From positions 1 to 35,670 of the forward strand of contig JAGAFU010000020.1 in assembly GCA_017627955.1 (NCBI GenBank): a DNA stretch of 35,670 bases, given 5' to 3'. Source of the stretch: Bacteroidales bacterium. GTDB lineage: Bacteria > Bacteroidota > Bacteroidia > Bacteroidales > UBA932. Of the stretch, positions 25,495 through 31,205 are shown piece after piece. Made by a program: the position numbers and the translations under genes. The number at the start of each line of letters is the position of its first letter. The first letter of the stretch is position 1. The notes beneath the pieces were generated by a model. That model ran no database searches. It had not been told where the DNA came from and worked only from the letters and a program-made list of their open reading frames with translations.

Positions 25495-25521
25495 AATTAT
25501 CAAGTGTCAAATACTTTCGTA

Positions 25522-28500
25522 TTATTCGCCACCTTCAGTAGCCGCAGGCTCAGTGGGCTCCTCAGCAGGCTCTTCGCTAACAGGATTCACCGGAGGGACA
25601 TCCTGGTTGATGGTCTTCTCAACAGGGACGGTCACCCAGTCAGTGTTGAAGTAACCAAAGCCATAGTGCAAGGTAGCCTTGACATAGAGCTCGAAGTTGT
25701 CGGTAAGGTTCCTACCGTTGTTGAAGTACATCAGGTAACCGCTGGCGTTCTTCGGGACATAGACAGTCCTCTTAGGACGGACAGGATCGCTGACCTTGAA
25801 GTAGGTAACCTTGTTGATGGTGGTATCAGGATCGTCAGGGAAGACCTGGACAATGTACATACCCTCGAAGATGCCCTGGCGCTTGCCAGCGATCTTGCAC
25901 TCGACATTGTTAGTGTCAATGATGATCTCGAAGTTGTAGGTGTCATCCTCCATCTTGACTCCGTAATAACCCCAATAGTTAGGATACTGGGCGAAGGTAC
26001 GCTTACGCCAATCCTTCGGGTTGAGGAGGTCAGCGATGCTGATGTAAGAACCAGGCTGGCCGAAGTCAACACCATCAACATACTTGCCAGTGGACAGGGT
26101 CTCGACCTCGATAGGACGGAGAATGTCAGCCTGGAAGTGATCCTTACCGTCGAAGGTCACAGCGACCTCCTTGGCATCCTCGGTGCAGAGGAAGGCCTTG
26201 GCACCGATGAAGGTGTACATGGCACCAGTGTTGATGAGAGTATCAGCGACATGGAAAACAGTATCCTCATTCTCGCCGATAGGCTCATTCTTGATCCAAT
26301 AGAAGGCATTGTAGAAGTTGACATTGAGTTCGTCCTCATCAAGAATCTCCTGAGCGGCCTCCTGAGCGGCGTCATGACCATTGATGATGACAGCGACAGG
26401 CTGCATCTCGTAACCCTTGAGAGCGTTACCCTTGGCATCCTGGATCTCGGCGAAGAGATAGCTGTAGACACCATCCTCGGTATCGATATCCCAAGCCTCG
26501 AGAGCGTCCTCATCGTCAACAAGGAACTCAACGTTGAGATCACCGATCTTGGTGATAGCCTCGACATCCTTCTTGCAGAAGTAGTAAACCACAGAGTCAA
26601 CAGCCTCGACCATGATCTGGCCAGCCTTAGCGCTGCCCTTAGGATAGGTAACGAAGGAAGTGTTGATGTCGGTGATCATCTGGGCGCCACGGCCGACAGT
26701 GTCGCCAGCGGGAGCAGGCATGACATTGTAACGTGTAGCGATACCCTTCTCACCACGGTCAGAAGGCTTGGTCCAGTACTCAGGGACATAGTCACCCTTG
26801 TCAGACTTGAGGTCGACACCCTTGTCGTAAGGAGCGACGCTGGCCTTCAGGAGAACGTCAACATAGAGAGAAGTGTTGGTCTTGCTGATGTACCTGGCGA
26901 TGATGGAGACATCCTTGCCGGCATACTTCCAGAGATCGTCCGGACCAAGCTCCCAGACAATAACGTGGGTACCCTGAACAGGATCAACCACAGAGTCGCG
27001 GACGGTGCCGATGGTATCCTTGACATCCTTAGGAAGGACGACAGTGATAGAATCATAGAGAGCGTGGAACTCATCCTTGGACTTGTTGGTCTGGTTGTAG
27101 AGGATCTTGTTCATATCCTCGACAGTGGTCATGAGCATGTCACCCTCGCAGTAGAAGTGGAAGATGTTCTCAGAGGTGTTGTCGAGAGGATCCCTTCTAG
27201 GAGTGAGCTCAACAGCAGGATTGATAGCGTCGACAGCGGCGATGTAAACCTTGATGTAAGCGACATTGATGATGTCCTCGCCATGCATGAGCTTGACGCG
27301 GATGATAGGAGTACGGCCGATGGAGGCGGTACCGTCAACGTCGTAAACAGCAGGCCAGAAAATACCATCTTCAATCTTGAAGTTCTTGTGCTTGACGAAG
27401 TTGGACTGATCAGTCTCAGGCTTTCCAACCTTGTAGTTCTTGACAACCTCATACTCGAAATGGAGACCGAACTCTTCCATCTCAGCAGGAGTCAACTCGA
27501 AGCAGTTCTCGACTTCCTCCTTAGGCTCCTCTCTATAGGTTCCGTCAGGAAGAACCTCTATTTCATCATCGCAGCACTCTTTGAGCTTCCAGCAGAAGCC
27601 ATTCTCAGGCACATAATGAGCGATGGTGATGGCATTGAGGTCAAGACCAGTGGTGGTGTTCCAAGCGATAGCGGTGTCGCAGGAAGCGTGGGCCTCTTCA
27701 AGAGTGTTGTTCTCACTCCAAGGAGCGACATACTCGTAAGCGAAGAGGTAATGCATGTCCTCATCATAGTAATCACCGTAGTAATCGCCATCATCGTTTC
27801 CGCTGAGACCAACGGTACCACGACGATAGTGCTCCTCGTAGTTTACGCTCTTGAGAGCTTCAGCCTTGTTGGGGCTAGGAGTGCTGGCAGTAGCCTTCAC
27901 CTGAGCGATAGGGTCAGCGATCCTGGGCTGATCGATATCCTTGACAACGAAGGTGGCGTAGTCAGAAGTGTAGACCTTGCCAGACTTGATGACCTGCAGA
28001 GCGAACTGGGTCATGTGGTTGTCAGTCTCGGAAGCAGTGGCGGGACGACCCTGATAAGTGACATTGAGGGAAAGCTTACCATCCTTGAACTCCTTGAAGG
28101 TGGCGTCCATGGCGAAATCCTCGCTGCTCTCAGTCCTTGTGTAGAAGGGAACGTCCTTCCAGATGAGCTTGTAAGTGTAGGTGGAATCGAGAGCAAGGCC
28201 ATAGTTGACGTGATAAGTGGCGACGGCGGGAACAGCCTCATAAACGAGGTAACCATTCTCGACAGCCCACTCACGATAAAGGTCAAATCCCTCCTCTTCG
28301 CTCGCGGCATCGAGGTCAATCTTGTTCTTTTCGCAATACTCCTCGAACTTTTCTATTGACTTCTCAATGTTGGCATCCCATTTCTCATCCTTGCTGTCAA
28401 TCTTGTTAGGGGTGTAGATCGAAGCGGTGAAGGACTTGATCACCATGGCGTGCTCGCCATCGACAATCGCCTGAGGCTCGAAAACGAAGCTAGCGGCGCT

Positions 28501-29265
28501 GTCAGGGATGGTGACCTTGAAGGTCTCGTCACCAGCCTTGATGGAGATGGTGTTGGTGTCAGCATCGAAATCAACGCTGAAGAATCCCACGGGGAGATAC
28601 TTCTGGTCAGTCGCGGTGATCACAATCTCACCGGTGGCCTCGTCAATCTCATACTTGTCCCAGCAAGCGGTCTCGGCATTAGGAACATACCAGCAGCCGT
28701 CCTTACCCTTAGGACCCTGTGCGGGGACCTCGAGGTCCTCTTCACCGATCCACCAGTTGCCGTTCTCACCAATGAAAGGAGTAAGACCGTCCTCTCCCTG
28801 GATACCCTGCTCGCCAGTGTCACCCTTAGGACCCTGGGCAGCAACCTCAGTGTCTTTGTCACCGATCCACCAGTTGCCGTTCTCACCAATGTAAGGAGTA
28901 AGACCGGCCTCACCCTGGATACCCTGAGGGCCCTGGATGCCTTGGTCACCCTTGTCACCCTTGTCACCCTTGTCACCCTTGGCTCCATTGAGGATCTCAT
29001 AAGTTTTACCATCAGAAGTGGTGAAAACCCATCCACCGACTTCCTTGGTGCTAGCGGAGACACCAGTAATCACATAACCGGCGTTGATCTTGTTCTGCAG
29101 CTCATTGACTGTAGACTGCAGAGACGAGACCTGACCATTGGTGTTAGTCACGTCGTTTTGCAATTTGTTGATGTCATCATCGTAGTCCGTACAAGATACG
29201 GCTACCCCTGCGAGACCCAGTACAAGAGCCCCGGCAAGGAACAGATTTTTGAATTTTTTGTTCAT
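25522..29265 (-). CDS. Very large lipoprotein with coiled coil and collagen-like repeats
   Basis: The 1247-residue product has a lipoprotein signal (lipobox VAVSC, Cys25). A short coiled coil (about 27-62, NKLQNDVTNTNGQVSSLQ) is followed by a DUF4988-like segment (STKEVGGWVFTTSDGKTYEI). Then comes a collagen-like Gly-X-Y stretch (94-119, GAKGDKGDKGDKGDQGIQG) continuing into a duplicated 38-39-residue unit (115-153 and 154-190). The remaining thousand residues look beta-rich and domain-repeated, ending in an acidic Pro/Glu tail. I know no enzymatic motif in it. The N-terminal order coiled coil plus collagen suggests a trimeric surface fibre anchored in the outer membrane. Confidence 0.85.
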   Translation of the reverse strand: MNKKFKNLFLAGALVLGLAGVAVSCTDYDDDINKLQNDVTNTNGQVSSLQSTVNELQNKINAGYVITGVSASTKEVGGWVFTTSDGKTYEILNGAKGDKGDKGDKGDQGIQGPQGIQGEAGLTPYIGENGNWWIGDKDTEVAAQGPKGDTGEQGIQGEDGLTPFIGENGNWWIGEEDLEVPAQGPKGKDGCWYVPNAETACWDKYEIDEATGEIVITATDQKYLPVGFFSVDFDADTNTISIKAGDETFKVTIPDSAASFVFEPQAIVDGEHAMVIKSFTASIYTPNKIDSKDEKWDANIEKSIEKFEEYCEKNKIDLDAASEEEGFDLYREWAVENGYLVYEAVPAVATYHVNYGLALDSTYTYKLIWKDVPFYTRTESSEDFAMDATFKEFKDGKLSLNVTYQGRPATASETDNHMTQFALQVIKSGKVYTSDYATFVVKDIDQPRIADPIAQVKATASTPSPNKAEALKSVNYEEHYRRGTVGLSGNDDGDYYGDYYDEDMHYLFAYEYVAPWSENNTLEEAHASCDTAIAWNTTTGLDLNAITIAHYVPENGFCWKLKECCDDEIEVLPDGTYREEPKEEVENCFELTPAEMEEFGLHFEYEVVKNYKVGKPETDQSNFVKHKNFKIEDGIFWPAVYDVDGTASIGRTPIIRVKLMHGEDIINVAYIKVYIAAVDAINPAVELTPRRDPLDNTSENIFHFYCEGDMLMTTVEDMNKILYNQTNKSKDEFHALYDSITVVLPKDVKDTIGTVRDSVVDPVQGTHVIVWELGPDDLWKYAGKDVSIIARYISKTNTSLYVDVLLKASVAPYDKGVDLKSDKGDYVPEYWTKPSDRGEKGIATRYNVMPAPAGDTVGRGAQMITDINTSFVTYPKGSAKAGQIMVEAVDSVVYYFCKKDVEAITKIGDLNVEFLVDDEDALEAWDIDTEDGVYSYLFAEIQDAKGNALKGYEMQPVAVIINGHDAAQEAAQEILDEDELNVNFYNAFYWIKNEPIGENEDTVFHVADTLINTGAMYTFIGAKAFLCTEDAKEVAVTFDGKDHFQADILRPIEVETLSTGKYVDGVDFGQPGSYISIADLLNPKDWRKRTFAQYPNYWGYYGVKMEDDTYNFEIIIDTNNVECKIAGKRQGIFEGMYIVQVFPDDPDTTINKVTYFKVSDPVRPKRTVYVPKNASGYLMYFNNGRNLTDNFELYVKATLHYGFGYFNTDWVTVPVEKTINQDVPPVNPVSEEPAEEPTEPAATEGGE
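28696..28923 (-). repeat. Duplicated 117-bp coding unit in the collagen-like region
   Basis: The unit encoding GIQGEAGLTPYIGENGNWWI and its continuation (28923-28807) is repeated as GIQGEDGLTPFIGENGNWWI (28806-28696). The bases coding IGENGNWWIG are almost identical. Next to it, about 28945-28980 is a 9-bp tandem repeat coding GDK. Unequal recombination could change copy number without shifting frame. Confidence 0.85.
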
Positions 29266-29615: not shown

Positions 29616-30980
29616 TTACTGGTTCAGGGCATCAGCTGACTTGATGTACTTCGCCAAATCCTCCTCGGATACATGGTAATTGCTCATCTCTCCCGAGAAA
29701 TACTGGTCATAAGCGCTCATATCGACAAATCCGTGTCCGGAAAGGTTGAACAGGATGGTCTTCGCCTCACCAGTCTCTTTGCATTTGAGCGCCTCGGCCA
29801 CTGTCGCGGCGATCGCGTGGCAGGACTCTGGAGCGGGGATAATACCCTCGGTCTGGGCGAACAGGACTCCGGCCTTGAAAGAATCAAGTTGCTCGATGTC
29901 GACAGCCTCCATGAAACCGTCCTTCATCAGCTGGCTCATGATCACACCAGCGCCATGGTAACGCAGACCACCGGCATGGATCGTGGCGGGCTTGAATGTG
30001 TGTCCGAGGGTGTACATGGGAAGGAGGGGTGTCAGTCCGGACTCGTCACCGAAGTCATATTCAAACTTGCCTCTCGTCAGTTTCGGGCAGGAATAGGGTT
30101 CAGCGGCGATGAAGCGGGTTTTCTTGCCTTCCTGGATGTTGTGGCGCATGAAAGGATAGGCGATGCCGCTGAAGTTGGAGCCGCCGCCGAAGCAGGCAAT
30201 GACGATGTCGGGATATTCCCCAGCCAGCTCCATCTGCTTTTCAGCCTCGAGACCGATGATTGATTGGTGGAGACAGACGTGGTTCAGCACGGAACCGAGC
30301 GTGTACTTGCAGTTGGGAGTAGTGACAGCAAGCTCGATGGCCTCGGAGATGGCGCACCCAAGGGAACCCTGGTCATTGGGATTGACTGTCAGGATGTCTT
30401 TACCGGCACGGGTCGACATTGAAGGGGAAGGGGTGATCGCCGCGCCGAAGGTCTGCATGATGCTTCTGCGGTAAGGCTTCTGGTTGTAGCTGACTTTAAC
30501 CATATAAACAGCGCAGTCTAAGCCGAACTTTTTGGCGGCATACGACAGGGCGCCTCCCCACTGGCCAGCGCCTGTCTCCGTGGTGATATTCGTGATCCCC
30601 TGCTTCTTCGCGTAGTAGGCCTGGGCCAAGGCGGAATTCAGCTTATGGCTGCCGGCCGGTGACACACTTTCATTTTTGAAATATATGTGCGCGGGAGTGC
30701 CGAGAGCCTCTTCCAGCTCATAAGCCCTCACGAGTGGAGTGCAGCGGTAGGCGGCGTACTGCTCACGAACCTCCTCCGGGATAGGAATCCACTCGTCCGT
30801 CTGGTTGAGTTCCTGGTCAGCGCACTCCTTGCAGAAGATCGGGTAAAGATCCTCGGGCTTGAGCGGCTGCCTGGTTCCGGGGTGAAGGAACGGGAGGGGC
30901 TTGTTGGGCATGATGGCCTGGATGTTGAAAAAATGCGTGGGAATCTCTGATTCCGGAAGCAAGAACTTTTTCTGTCTCAT
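29616..30980 (-). CDS. trpB: Tryptophan synthase beta-like protein TrpB2
   Basis: The enzyme joins indole and serine to make tryptophan. At 454 residues it is the longer TrpB2 type (TIGR01415-like), with the extra N-terminus PTHFFNIQAIMPNKPLPFLHPGT. The PLP lysine is Lys113 in SPAGSHKLNSA, and the phosphate cup is CFGGGSNFSG. Other segments are TTETGAGQWGGALSYAA and HAGGLRYHGAGV. No trpA or other trp gene is nearby, as is common for TrpB2, which can use free indole. Immediately upstream is a leader peptide with tandem Trp and a terminator, so expression is probably tuned by tryptophan supply. Confidence 0.93.
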   Translation of the reverse strand: MRQKKFLLPESEIPTHFFNIQAIMPNKPLPFLHPGTRQPLKPEDLYPIFCKECADQELNQTDEWIPIPEEVREQYAAYRCTPLVRAYELEEALGTPAHIYFKNESVSPAGSHKLNSALAQAYYAKKQGITNITTETGAGQWGGALSYAAKKFGLDCAVYMVKVSYNQKPYRRSIMQTFGAAITPSPSMSTRAGKDILTVNPNDQGSLGCAISEAIELAVTTPNCKYTLGSVLNHVCLHQSIIGLEAEKQMELAGEYPDIVIACFGGGSNFSGIAYPFMRHNIQEGKKTRFIAAEPYSCPKLTRGKFEYDFGDESGLTPLLPMYTLGHTFKPATIHAGGLRYHGAGVIMSQLMKDGFMEAVDIEQLDSFKAGVLFAQTEGIIPAPESCHAIAATVAEALKCKETGEAKTILFNLSGHGFVDMSAYDQYFSGEMSNYHVSEEDLAKYIKSADALNQ

Positions 30981-31040
30981 TGCTGTTCGTTTTTAAATTG
31001 GGTTTATAATAAATGTAACATAATCTTCAGGGCATAAAGA

Positions 31041-31073
31041 AAGGTGGCCCGCTGTAAGTCAGCGTGCCACCTT
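31041..31073 (-). terminator. Attenuator terminator hairpin upstream of trpB2
   Basis: AAGGTGGC pairs with GCCACCTT (8 bp). After an A-G mismatch, CGCTG pairs with CAGCG over an ACTTA loop. It lies 60 bases before the trpB2 start, inside its leader. The U tract (TCTTTA) is short, as expected for a conditional terminator. Confidence 0.8.
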
Positions 31074-31137
31074 ATACTAAACGAACCTGGTAACCACGAG
31101 CGACGACTTACAGCTTTGAACTGCAAGAGCGCCACCA
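31041..31137 (-). promoter_or_regulatory. trp attenuator: 1:2 hairpin, antiterminator and terminator
   Basis: On the minus strand the parts occur in order. Two Trp codons lie at 31137-31132. Segment 1, CTTGCAG (31127-31121), pairs with segment 2, CTGTAAG (31113-31107), six Watson-Crick pairs and one G-U, over a 7-base loop. The overlapping GCTGTAAGTC (31114-31105) is the exact complement of GACTTACAGC (31060-31051). That segment lies in the terminator hairpin 31073-31041, whose 13-bp stem has one A-G mismatch and is followed by TCTTTA. A ribosome stalled at Trp would cover segment 1 and allow the 10-bp antiterminator. With Trp present the ribosome moves on and the terminator forms. Confidence 0.8.
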
Positions 31138-31164
31138 GAAGTTATTGTTCGTGTTCTTTCTCAT
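31108..31164 (-). CDS. trpL: trp leader peptide with tandem tryptophan codons
   Basis: The 18-residue open frame MRKNTNNNFWWRSCSSKL ends at a TAA. Codons 10 and 11 are both TGG. Its stop codon lies within segment 2 of the attenuator, and its last codons contain segment 1, the geometry expected of a ribosome-sensing leader. The ATG is only a few bases from the predicted transcription start, so it may be translated nearly leaderless. The gene symbol is functional by analogy with trpL elsewhere; no homology is claimed. Confidence 0.8.
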   Translation of the reverse strand: MRKNTNNNFWWRSCSSKL

Positions 31165-31171
31165 ACCGAAA

Positions 31172-31202
31172 ACAAATATAGCGATTAAAATCGTAAATGC
31201 AA
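31172..31202 (-). promoter_or_regulatory. Promoter of the trpL-trpB2 unit
   Basis: TATATTTG (31179-31172 or one base aside on the minus strand) matches TAnnTTTG. A TTG at 31202-31200 lies about 19-20 bases upstream. Transcription would begin near 31167, just before the leader ATG at 31164. It overlaps the 3' end of the sdhC transcript. Confidence 0.65.
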
Positions 31203-31205
31203 TAC

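Follow-up and report, generated by a model that had tools for sequence, protein, structure and literature searches.

The trpB2 gene of this Bacteroidales bacterium is very probably preceded by a ribosome-mediated transcription attenuator that couples its expression to the charging of tRNA-Trp, as judged by sequence comparison. In the window, i.e., the whole stretch of 35,670 nucleotides that was analyzed (contig JAGAFU010000020.1), a leader of approximately 130 nt lies on the minus strand between sdhC (31979-31206, minus strand, identified by a match to the profile TIGR02046) and trpB2 (30980-29616). Ribosome-mediated trp attenuation of a lone trpB2 had been proposed for this site in an earlier note on the same DNA, and the proposal appears well supported by the comparative evidence.

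Architecture of the trpB2 Leader

The leader and its target gene comprise the following elements:

31200-31203, minus strand: -33 promoter element ATTG with a TTG core, directly past the sdhC stop codon (consensus TTTG)
31173-31180, minus strand: -7 promoter element TATATTTG, TAnnTTTG-like, 19 nt from the -33 element
31108-31164, minus strand: leader ORF MRKNTNNNFWWRSCSSKL of 18 amino acids, with its AUG 8 nt past the -7 element
31132-31137, minus strand: two putative regulatory Trp codons (codons 10-11); TGGTGG is invariant in 39 of the 39 rows of alignment A1
31121-31127, minus strand: segment 1, CTTGCAG, the 5' arm of the 1:2 hairpin, which pairs with 31113-31107
31105-31114, minus strand: segment 2, GCTGTAAGTC, which contains the leader stop codon and has segment 1 and segment 3 as alternative partners
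31051-31060, minus strand: segment 3, GACTTACAGC, terminator loop and inner strand, which pairs with segment 2
31041-31073, minus strand: intrinsic terminator hairpin (segments 3:4), 8+5 bp, with covariation
31034-31040, minus strand: U-rich terminator tail
29616-30980, minus strand: trpB2, 454 amino acids, the putatively controlled gene (NF009057 and TIGR01415)

The earlier note had described these parts, and each of them is present in the sequence. The 18-residue leader carries its adjacent Trp codons on the minus strand, and the 1:2 hairpin (31127-31121 with 31113-31107; 7 bp, including one G-U) begins four bases past the second Trp codon and holds the leader stop codon (31110-31108) in its second arm. 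The antiterminator between 31114-31105 and 31060-31051 is perfect, with 10 of 10 pairs. The 13-bp terminator, which shares segment 3, is formed by 8+5 pairs flanking one A-G mismatch (31073-31041) and is followed by the U-rich tail. The TAnnTTTG promoter corresponds to the element at 31180-31173 together with ATTG at 31203-31200. The folding energy of the leader RNA is -53.5 kcal/mol (z = -6.0), a value equaled by 0 of 200 shuffles.

Two tRNA genes are located upstream of sdhC, and no sdhA or sdhB was recognized by eye in the list of surrounding ORFs. Of the 12 relatives listed, 7 likewise have an sdhC-like ORF ahead of trpB2. Elsewhere in the window, positions 25522-29265 encode a 1247-aa ORF with a lipoprotein-like start and collagen-like G-x-x repeats, which is overlapped by an antisense ORF of 951 amino acids (25504-28359).

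Conservation of the Leader Upstream of trpB2

A search of 61 whole genomes returned 50 with a match, 42 of which encode TrpB2 (at least 53% identity) and 8 only a TrpB1-like protein (below 40%). The locus sample combined 30 loci from the 61 genomes with the best 80 contig loci among the matches listed, and leans to close relatives; the nearest named relatives among these matches are mostly labelled as assemblies from ruminant gut samples. The census covered 106 of these 110 loci, leaving out L027, L074 and L099, which have no trpB2 start, and L030, which was read under the handle L151; removal of 5 identical upstreams left 101 distinct ones. The motif was counted as present when a terminator-like hairpin followed a short ORF that encodes W-W or W-x-W. 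It was found in 74 of the 101 distinct upstreams (73 with a score floor), a count over related genomes that are not independent trials, as compared with 1 of 303 control pieces from other parts of these loci and with none of 303 shuffled sequences. When the rows were anchored on the terminator only, TGGTGG lay in a frame open from an ATG to a stop codon ahead of the terminator in 70 of 72, and the two shifted frames through TGGTGG were open in 0 and 4 rows. The leader frame with Trp codons that the earlier note expected in relatives occurs, with its terminator, in 30 of the 42 TrpB2 genomes and is absent from the other 12 (a hand tally over 42 readable upstreams); these 12 count against the proposal.

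The arrangement of the Trp codons varies in some relatives, since spaced codons replace the plain WW before trpB2 in L144 (WCW), L145 (WRWRWW) and L146 (WRWRW), from genomes G057, G043 and G049, respectively. In genome G016 (loci L015 and L136) a Trp leader precedes trpB1, and none precedes its trpB2. Close downstream ORFs of the leader-less trpB2 genes in L076, L084 and L085 resemble Phe/Tyr or shikimate genes when read by eye. The Trp attenuator may have been lost where trpB2 heads a cluster of this kind.

Covariation and Pairing Tests

The sequence type of the window, class A, was represented by the 39 rows of alignment A1, from which two of the 41 class A rows were omitted by hand (L029, another sequence type that had passed the motif filter; L110, with a leader identical to those of L007, L040 and L054). 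The earlier note had called for covarying stems in relatives, and the terminator is the stem that answers to this. Changes on both sides were found in 9 of its 14 pairs (65 cells), its covariation score was reached by 0 of 500 shuffles, and 88.2% of the cells are paired as compared with 26.8-53.0% in slid versions. By contrast, the other two stems hardly vary within class A. In the 2:3 helix, 95.2% of the cells of the 39 rows are paired, with nearly invariant letters, and the helix does not stand out from its shuffle control: 46 of 500 shuffles reach its pairing and 174 of 500 its covariation score. The 1:2 hairpin is paired in 99.6% of the cells, shows little variation, and has one double-changed pair, a number that 45 of 500 shuffles also reach.

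Because both stems are nearly invariant inside class A, the best support for them comes from the comparison of lineages. Class B (15 rows, alignment A2) follows the same logic with different letters. Its 1:2 hairpin is CCTGA/TCAGG, and its antiterminator, CCGGTCAG/CTGTCCGG, has 7 of 8 pairs and one T-T. The class B terminator covaries in 13 double-change cells, and none of 500 shuffles attains its covariation score; the number of its double-change pairs, three, was reached by 203 of 500.

The stretch following the Trp codons was further compared with the terminator of the same locus in 74 rows, which gave a mean pairing score of 22.8 against 15.6 for shuffles. With the whole terminator scanned, the antiterminator reached p ≤ 0.05 in 51 of the 74 rows, or in 17 of 74 when the inner 3' strand of the terminator was left out of the scan. 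The 23 rows with p > 0.05 in the whole scan include all 6 of the GTCGTAG/CTGCGAC group. Swapping terminators among 19 representatives of sequence clusters lowered the mean score from 22.4 to 16.3, and none of 5000 permutations matched the original pairing; the clustering was average-linkage, and the corresponding counts are 8 of 5000 at 6 clusters and 2477 of 5000 at 2 clusters, which are too few for a test. The own terminator pairs better than foreign ones in 17 of the 19 clusters. The antiterminator is therefore kept between classes and lineages though both of its partners have been replaced.

Promoter and Translation Start of the Leader

The promoter consensus -33 TTTG / -7 TAnnTTTG is given in the available text of a previous study (PMC7366714). 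A consensus search that required TTG at -33 and tolerated no more than a single mismatch in the -7 element located a -33/-7 pair before the leader in 64 of the 74 rows, and in none of them between the terminator and trpB2; a lone exact -7 element past the terminator occurs in one row, L010. In 71 rows a -7 element with one mismatch or none was found, and the distance from it to the nearest in-frame AUG is 6-9 nt in 45, 19-25 nt in 14, and another value between 2 and 50 nt in 12. When only exact -7 elements are counted, 34 of the 74 rows have one (shuffles, 6%), at 6-9 nt in 16 of the 34. Among ordinary long genes of these loci, from 54 sources, 20 of 416 combine an exact -7 with a -33 element, and these place the AUG at 16-25 nt in 16 of the 20 and at 9 nt in one, several of the genes being mutual orthologues.

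In Bacteroides thetaiotaomicron, the -7 element is centered at -7, and approximately 3.7% of the 5' UTRs are shorter than 10 nt, as given in the available text (PMC7366714). Because the -7 element of the window ends 8 nt before the leader AUG, the same geometry predicts a 5' UTR of about 0-5 nt. The spacing of the consensus promoter elements suggests that the leader peptide is near-leaderless.

Folding States and Proposed Mechanism

Truncated RNAs were folded on the assumption that 13 nt beyond the A site are hidden when the ribosome stalls at either Trp codon (10 or 11). When the first 41 or 44 bases of the leader are withheld and the polymerase has just passed segment 3, the lowest-energy fold is the antiterminator (-24.2 kcal/mol). 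This folded state also sequesters the 5' arm of the terminator in a second helix, roughly 31097-31089 with 31071-31063. When segment 2 is withheld as well, the terminator becomes the minimum (-22.2 kcal/mol). A completed terminator is the minimum even if the 5' part of the leader is withheld, i.e., in the stalled case as well, and the switch must therefore be kinetic. Attenuation is generally held to be kinetically controlled.

We infer how the switch responds to Trp, that the ribosome stalls, in which direction control acts, where the indole comes from and exactly where transcription starts, and the resulting mechanism would proceed as follows. RNA polymerase would start at, or a few bases before, the leader AUG. 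When Trp-tRNA is plentiful, the ribosome would pass both UGG codons and reach the stop codon, covering segment 2, which would leave segment 3 to fold with segment 4 and would end transcription at approximately 31040. With scarce Trp-tRNA the ribosome would stall at codons 10-11 and cover segment 1, segment 2 would pair with the emerging segment 3, the terminator would form too late, and trpB2 would be made. TrpB2 would then combine indole from outside with serine, so that indole salvage would be switched on only under Trp shortage in the cell.

Other Readings of the Leader Hairpins

The hairpin upstream of trpB2 might simply end sdhC transcription, with the leader ORF incidental and trpB2 transcribed from a constitutive promoter of its own. 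The end of sdhC does lie directly upstream, and five leader-lacking relatives (L016, L049, L076, L084 and L109) show by eye an sdhC-like end and a hairpin with no leader. A separate trpB2 promoter is also favored by a one-mismatch -7 element, TACATTTA, that was seen by eye past the window terminator at 31017-31010; this element has no -33 partner, and the complete pair is missing past the terminator in all 74 rows. Against an incidental ORF stand the order of leader and terminator in 73 of the 101 upstreams, the Trp-codon frame in 70 of 72 rows and the outcome of the swap test (0 of 5000). Leaders moreover persist in loci where sdhC does not adjoin (L053, L070, L092 and L104, read by eye). A hairpin that serves sdhC alone is a highly improbable account of the region.

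The same hairpins could also be governed by another sensor, such as a T-box, a riboswitch or an RNA-binding protein that reads Trp. There is precedent for this in Firmicutes, in which Trp control is exerted by T-box or TRAP. Such a sensor needs no open frame with pairs or triplets of UGG, yet the frame is kept. No T-box or riboswitch of Rfam matched the window at gathering scores or, with E values of up to 10 allowed, the 401-base region. We regard this type of control as extremely improbable here, and ribosome-mediated attenuation by a Trp-codon leader is the preferred explanation.

TrpB2 and the Tryptophan Gene Content

The trpB2 product scores 690.5 bits with NF009057 (cut-off 366) and 588.5 bits with TIGR01415 (cut-off 518.85). 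It is the sole TrpB found in the genome of the window (2.58 Mb, 92.6% complete), in which no match was obtained for trpA, trpC, trpD, trpB1 or tnaA in a search that covered these five genes. The tnaA model reached its cut-off in 0 of the 61 genomes, 28 of which have a match below it. Since those five genes were not found, TrpB2 can apparently supply Trp only from outside indole. The suggestion of the earlier note that TrpB2 works in Trp supply rather than only in indole salvage is, for this reason, a false contrast: with outside indole as the apparent route to Trp, the opposition of supply and salvage falls away.

A trpA match over the cut-off is absent in 24 of the 30 leader-bearing genomes of the 61-genome set, i.e., trpA is present in 6 of 30 leader-bearing versus 5 of 12 leader-lacking genomes by a hand tally. 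Among 50 named genomes, drawn from 73 loci as all 19 leader-lacking ones and 31 others picked by hand at about every second, the corresponding figures are 5 of 31 and 10 of 19 (Fisher 0.0105, kinship ignored; L075, whose 6-aa GTG leader is doubtful, was taken as leader-bearing). The association of the leader with the absence of trpA is a trend only.

The attenuation could be real and TrpB2 nevertheless serve another purpose than Trp supply, e.g., serine deamination or another PLP reaction. The NCBIfam label is merely 'TrpB-like', and in some leader-lacking relatives trpB2 adjoins, as read by eye, Phe/Tyr-like pathway genes. By contrast, a leader with Trp codons implies a product linked to Trp. 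The available text of a study on the TrpB2 of B. thetaiotaomicron also speaks against another role, as an E. coli trpA mutant that carried it grew better beside wild-type E. coli, which its authors read as conversion of secreted indole (PMC11535334). Such a role for TrpB2 is very unlikely, and Trp supply from indole remains the favored function.

Relation to Known Leaders

The E. coli trpL attenuator, which controls trpEDCBA, consists of a leader peptide with tandem Trp codons, stems 1:2, 2:3 and 3:4, and an intrinsic terminator. The window leader shares the tandem-Trp peptide, the three stems and the intrinsic terminator, and differs in its target, a lone trpB2, and in the position of the stop codon inside segment 2. 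In addition, segment 3 of class A consists of the terminator loop and inner strand, and the window has a Bacteroidota-type promoter with, as predicted, almost no 5' UTR.

In Bacteroidetes, the Bacteroid-trp element RF01692 (Weinberg 2010) was described as a cis-regulatory candidate (PMC2864571, available text), is named 'Bacteroidete tryptophan peptide leader RNA' in Rfam, and has been described as similar to the trp leader of E. coli (PMC6414381, available text). For Flavobacterium psychrophilum, signs of attenuation by leader peptides upstream of amino-acid operons have been reported (PMC9723704, available text). RF01692 matched 4 of the 61 relatives, 3 of them over the cut-off and all directly before trpB1, under strict filters by which weak matches are lost. 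The window gave no match at the gathering score (49 bits), the 401-base region gave none with E values of up to 10 allowed, and two other trpB2 leaders scored 30.5 and 29.5 bits, below the cut-off. Like this Trp peptide leader of Bacteroidetes, the window element has a run of UGG codons followed by a segment 2 that resembles the GUCGUAAG of the RF01692 consensus; unlike RF01692, which precedes trpB1 in these relatives, it precedes trpB2. The window element would work like RF01692, yet is not classed as RF01692.

A model built from the class A trpB2 leaders, R1, has one match in the genome of the window, namely the window element. In other genomes it also recovers leaders before trpB1, trpE-like and trpG/pabA-like genes. 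Four trpB1 leaders are matched at E values from 2e-6 to 2e-4, but a plain terminator (G060:C78) is matched at 1.1e-4. R1 matches loci devoid of a Trp leader as well (L126, L127, L129, L137 and L139, the first three being plain terminators), and scores near E 1e-4 are thus unspecific. The trpB2 leader peptides WWWHLQLRKS (L046) and WWWRLQLKKS (L047) resemble the trpB1 leader WWWHLQLQQS (L114). Shared descent of the trpB2 and trpB1 leaders is plausible, and convergence is possible.

Two systems outside Bacteroidota resemble the window in single traits. The trpL (rnTrpL) of Sinorhizobium meliloti is a leaderless Trp leader, with the RNA starting at the trpL ATG, according to the available text (PMC7298713); it controls trpE(G), and the near-leaderless start in the window is deduced from promoter spacing. 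An attenuator was predicted before the trpB2A operon of Corynebacterium diphtheriae, in which trpB2 comes first (PMC1262725, available text). That gene, which resembles the window trpB2 by name, belongs to a biosynthetic operon of Actinobacteria in which trpA follows; the window trpB2 is a lone gene. As to whether attenuation of trpB2 in Bacteroidota had been described, on which the earlier note was undecided, Trp attenuation in the phylum is on record through RF01692. No description of a trpB2 attenuator in Bacteroidota was recognized in the available text of the open-licence literature, and trpB2 as its target seems new.

Leaders that carry codons of other amino acids were also observed in the relatives. 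In G022:C42 (L128:961-2042, minus strand), cysK (TIGR01139, 421.6 bits, cut-off 350.95) is directly preceded by a terminator and by a leader ORF with consecutive Cys codons (ACCCCDC), likely a Cys attenuator in the same genus. A leader ORF with five His codons (SLHHHHHWE) and a terminator lie before hisG in G048:C134 (L130:322-1480, minus strand; TIGR00070, 115.8 bits, cut-off 75.75), likely a His attenuator in another family of the same order. A trpE-like gene in G042:C131 (L125:1846-2131, minus strand; best family TIGR00564, below cut-off) follows two Trp leaders in tandem, both of which have WWW and a terminator of their own, and double attenuation is possible at this locus.

Biological Implications

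The attenuator would tie TrpB2 to Trp shortage through a sensor that reads only charged tRNA-Trp, and would make it directly testable whether gut Bacteroidales use indole salvage as a regulated supply of Trp. The attenuator set occurs in at least two sequence classes and, in the cases tried, beyond the reach of the Rfam model. Its sensor peptide is likely near-leaderless, in a phylum whose one consulted species, B. thetaiotaomicron, has few short 5' UTRs. With about an even chance of being right, we propose that in Bacteroidales that appear to have lost the Trp pathway a near-leaderless Trp leader akin to that of trpB1 in the trp operon gates the use of community indole, and that the attenuator outlived the pathway. 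If this is true, the cell would take the indole of its neighbors only when its own tRNA-Trp is uncharged, and the attenuator would have survived the pathway that it may once have served by residing on the salvage gene.
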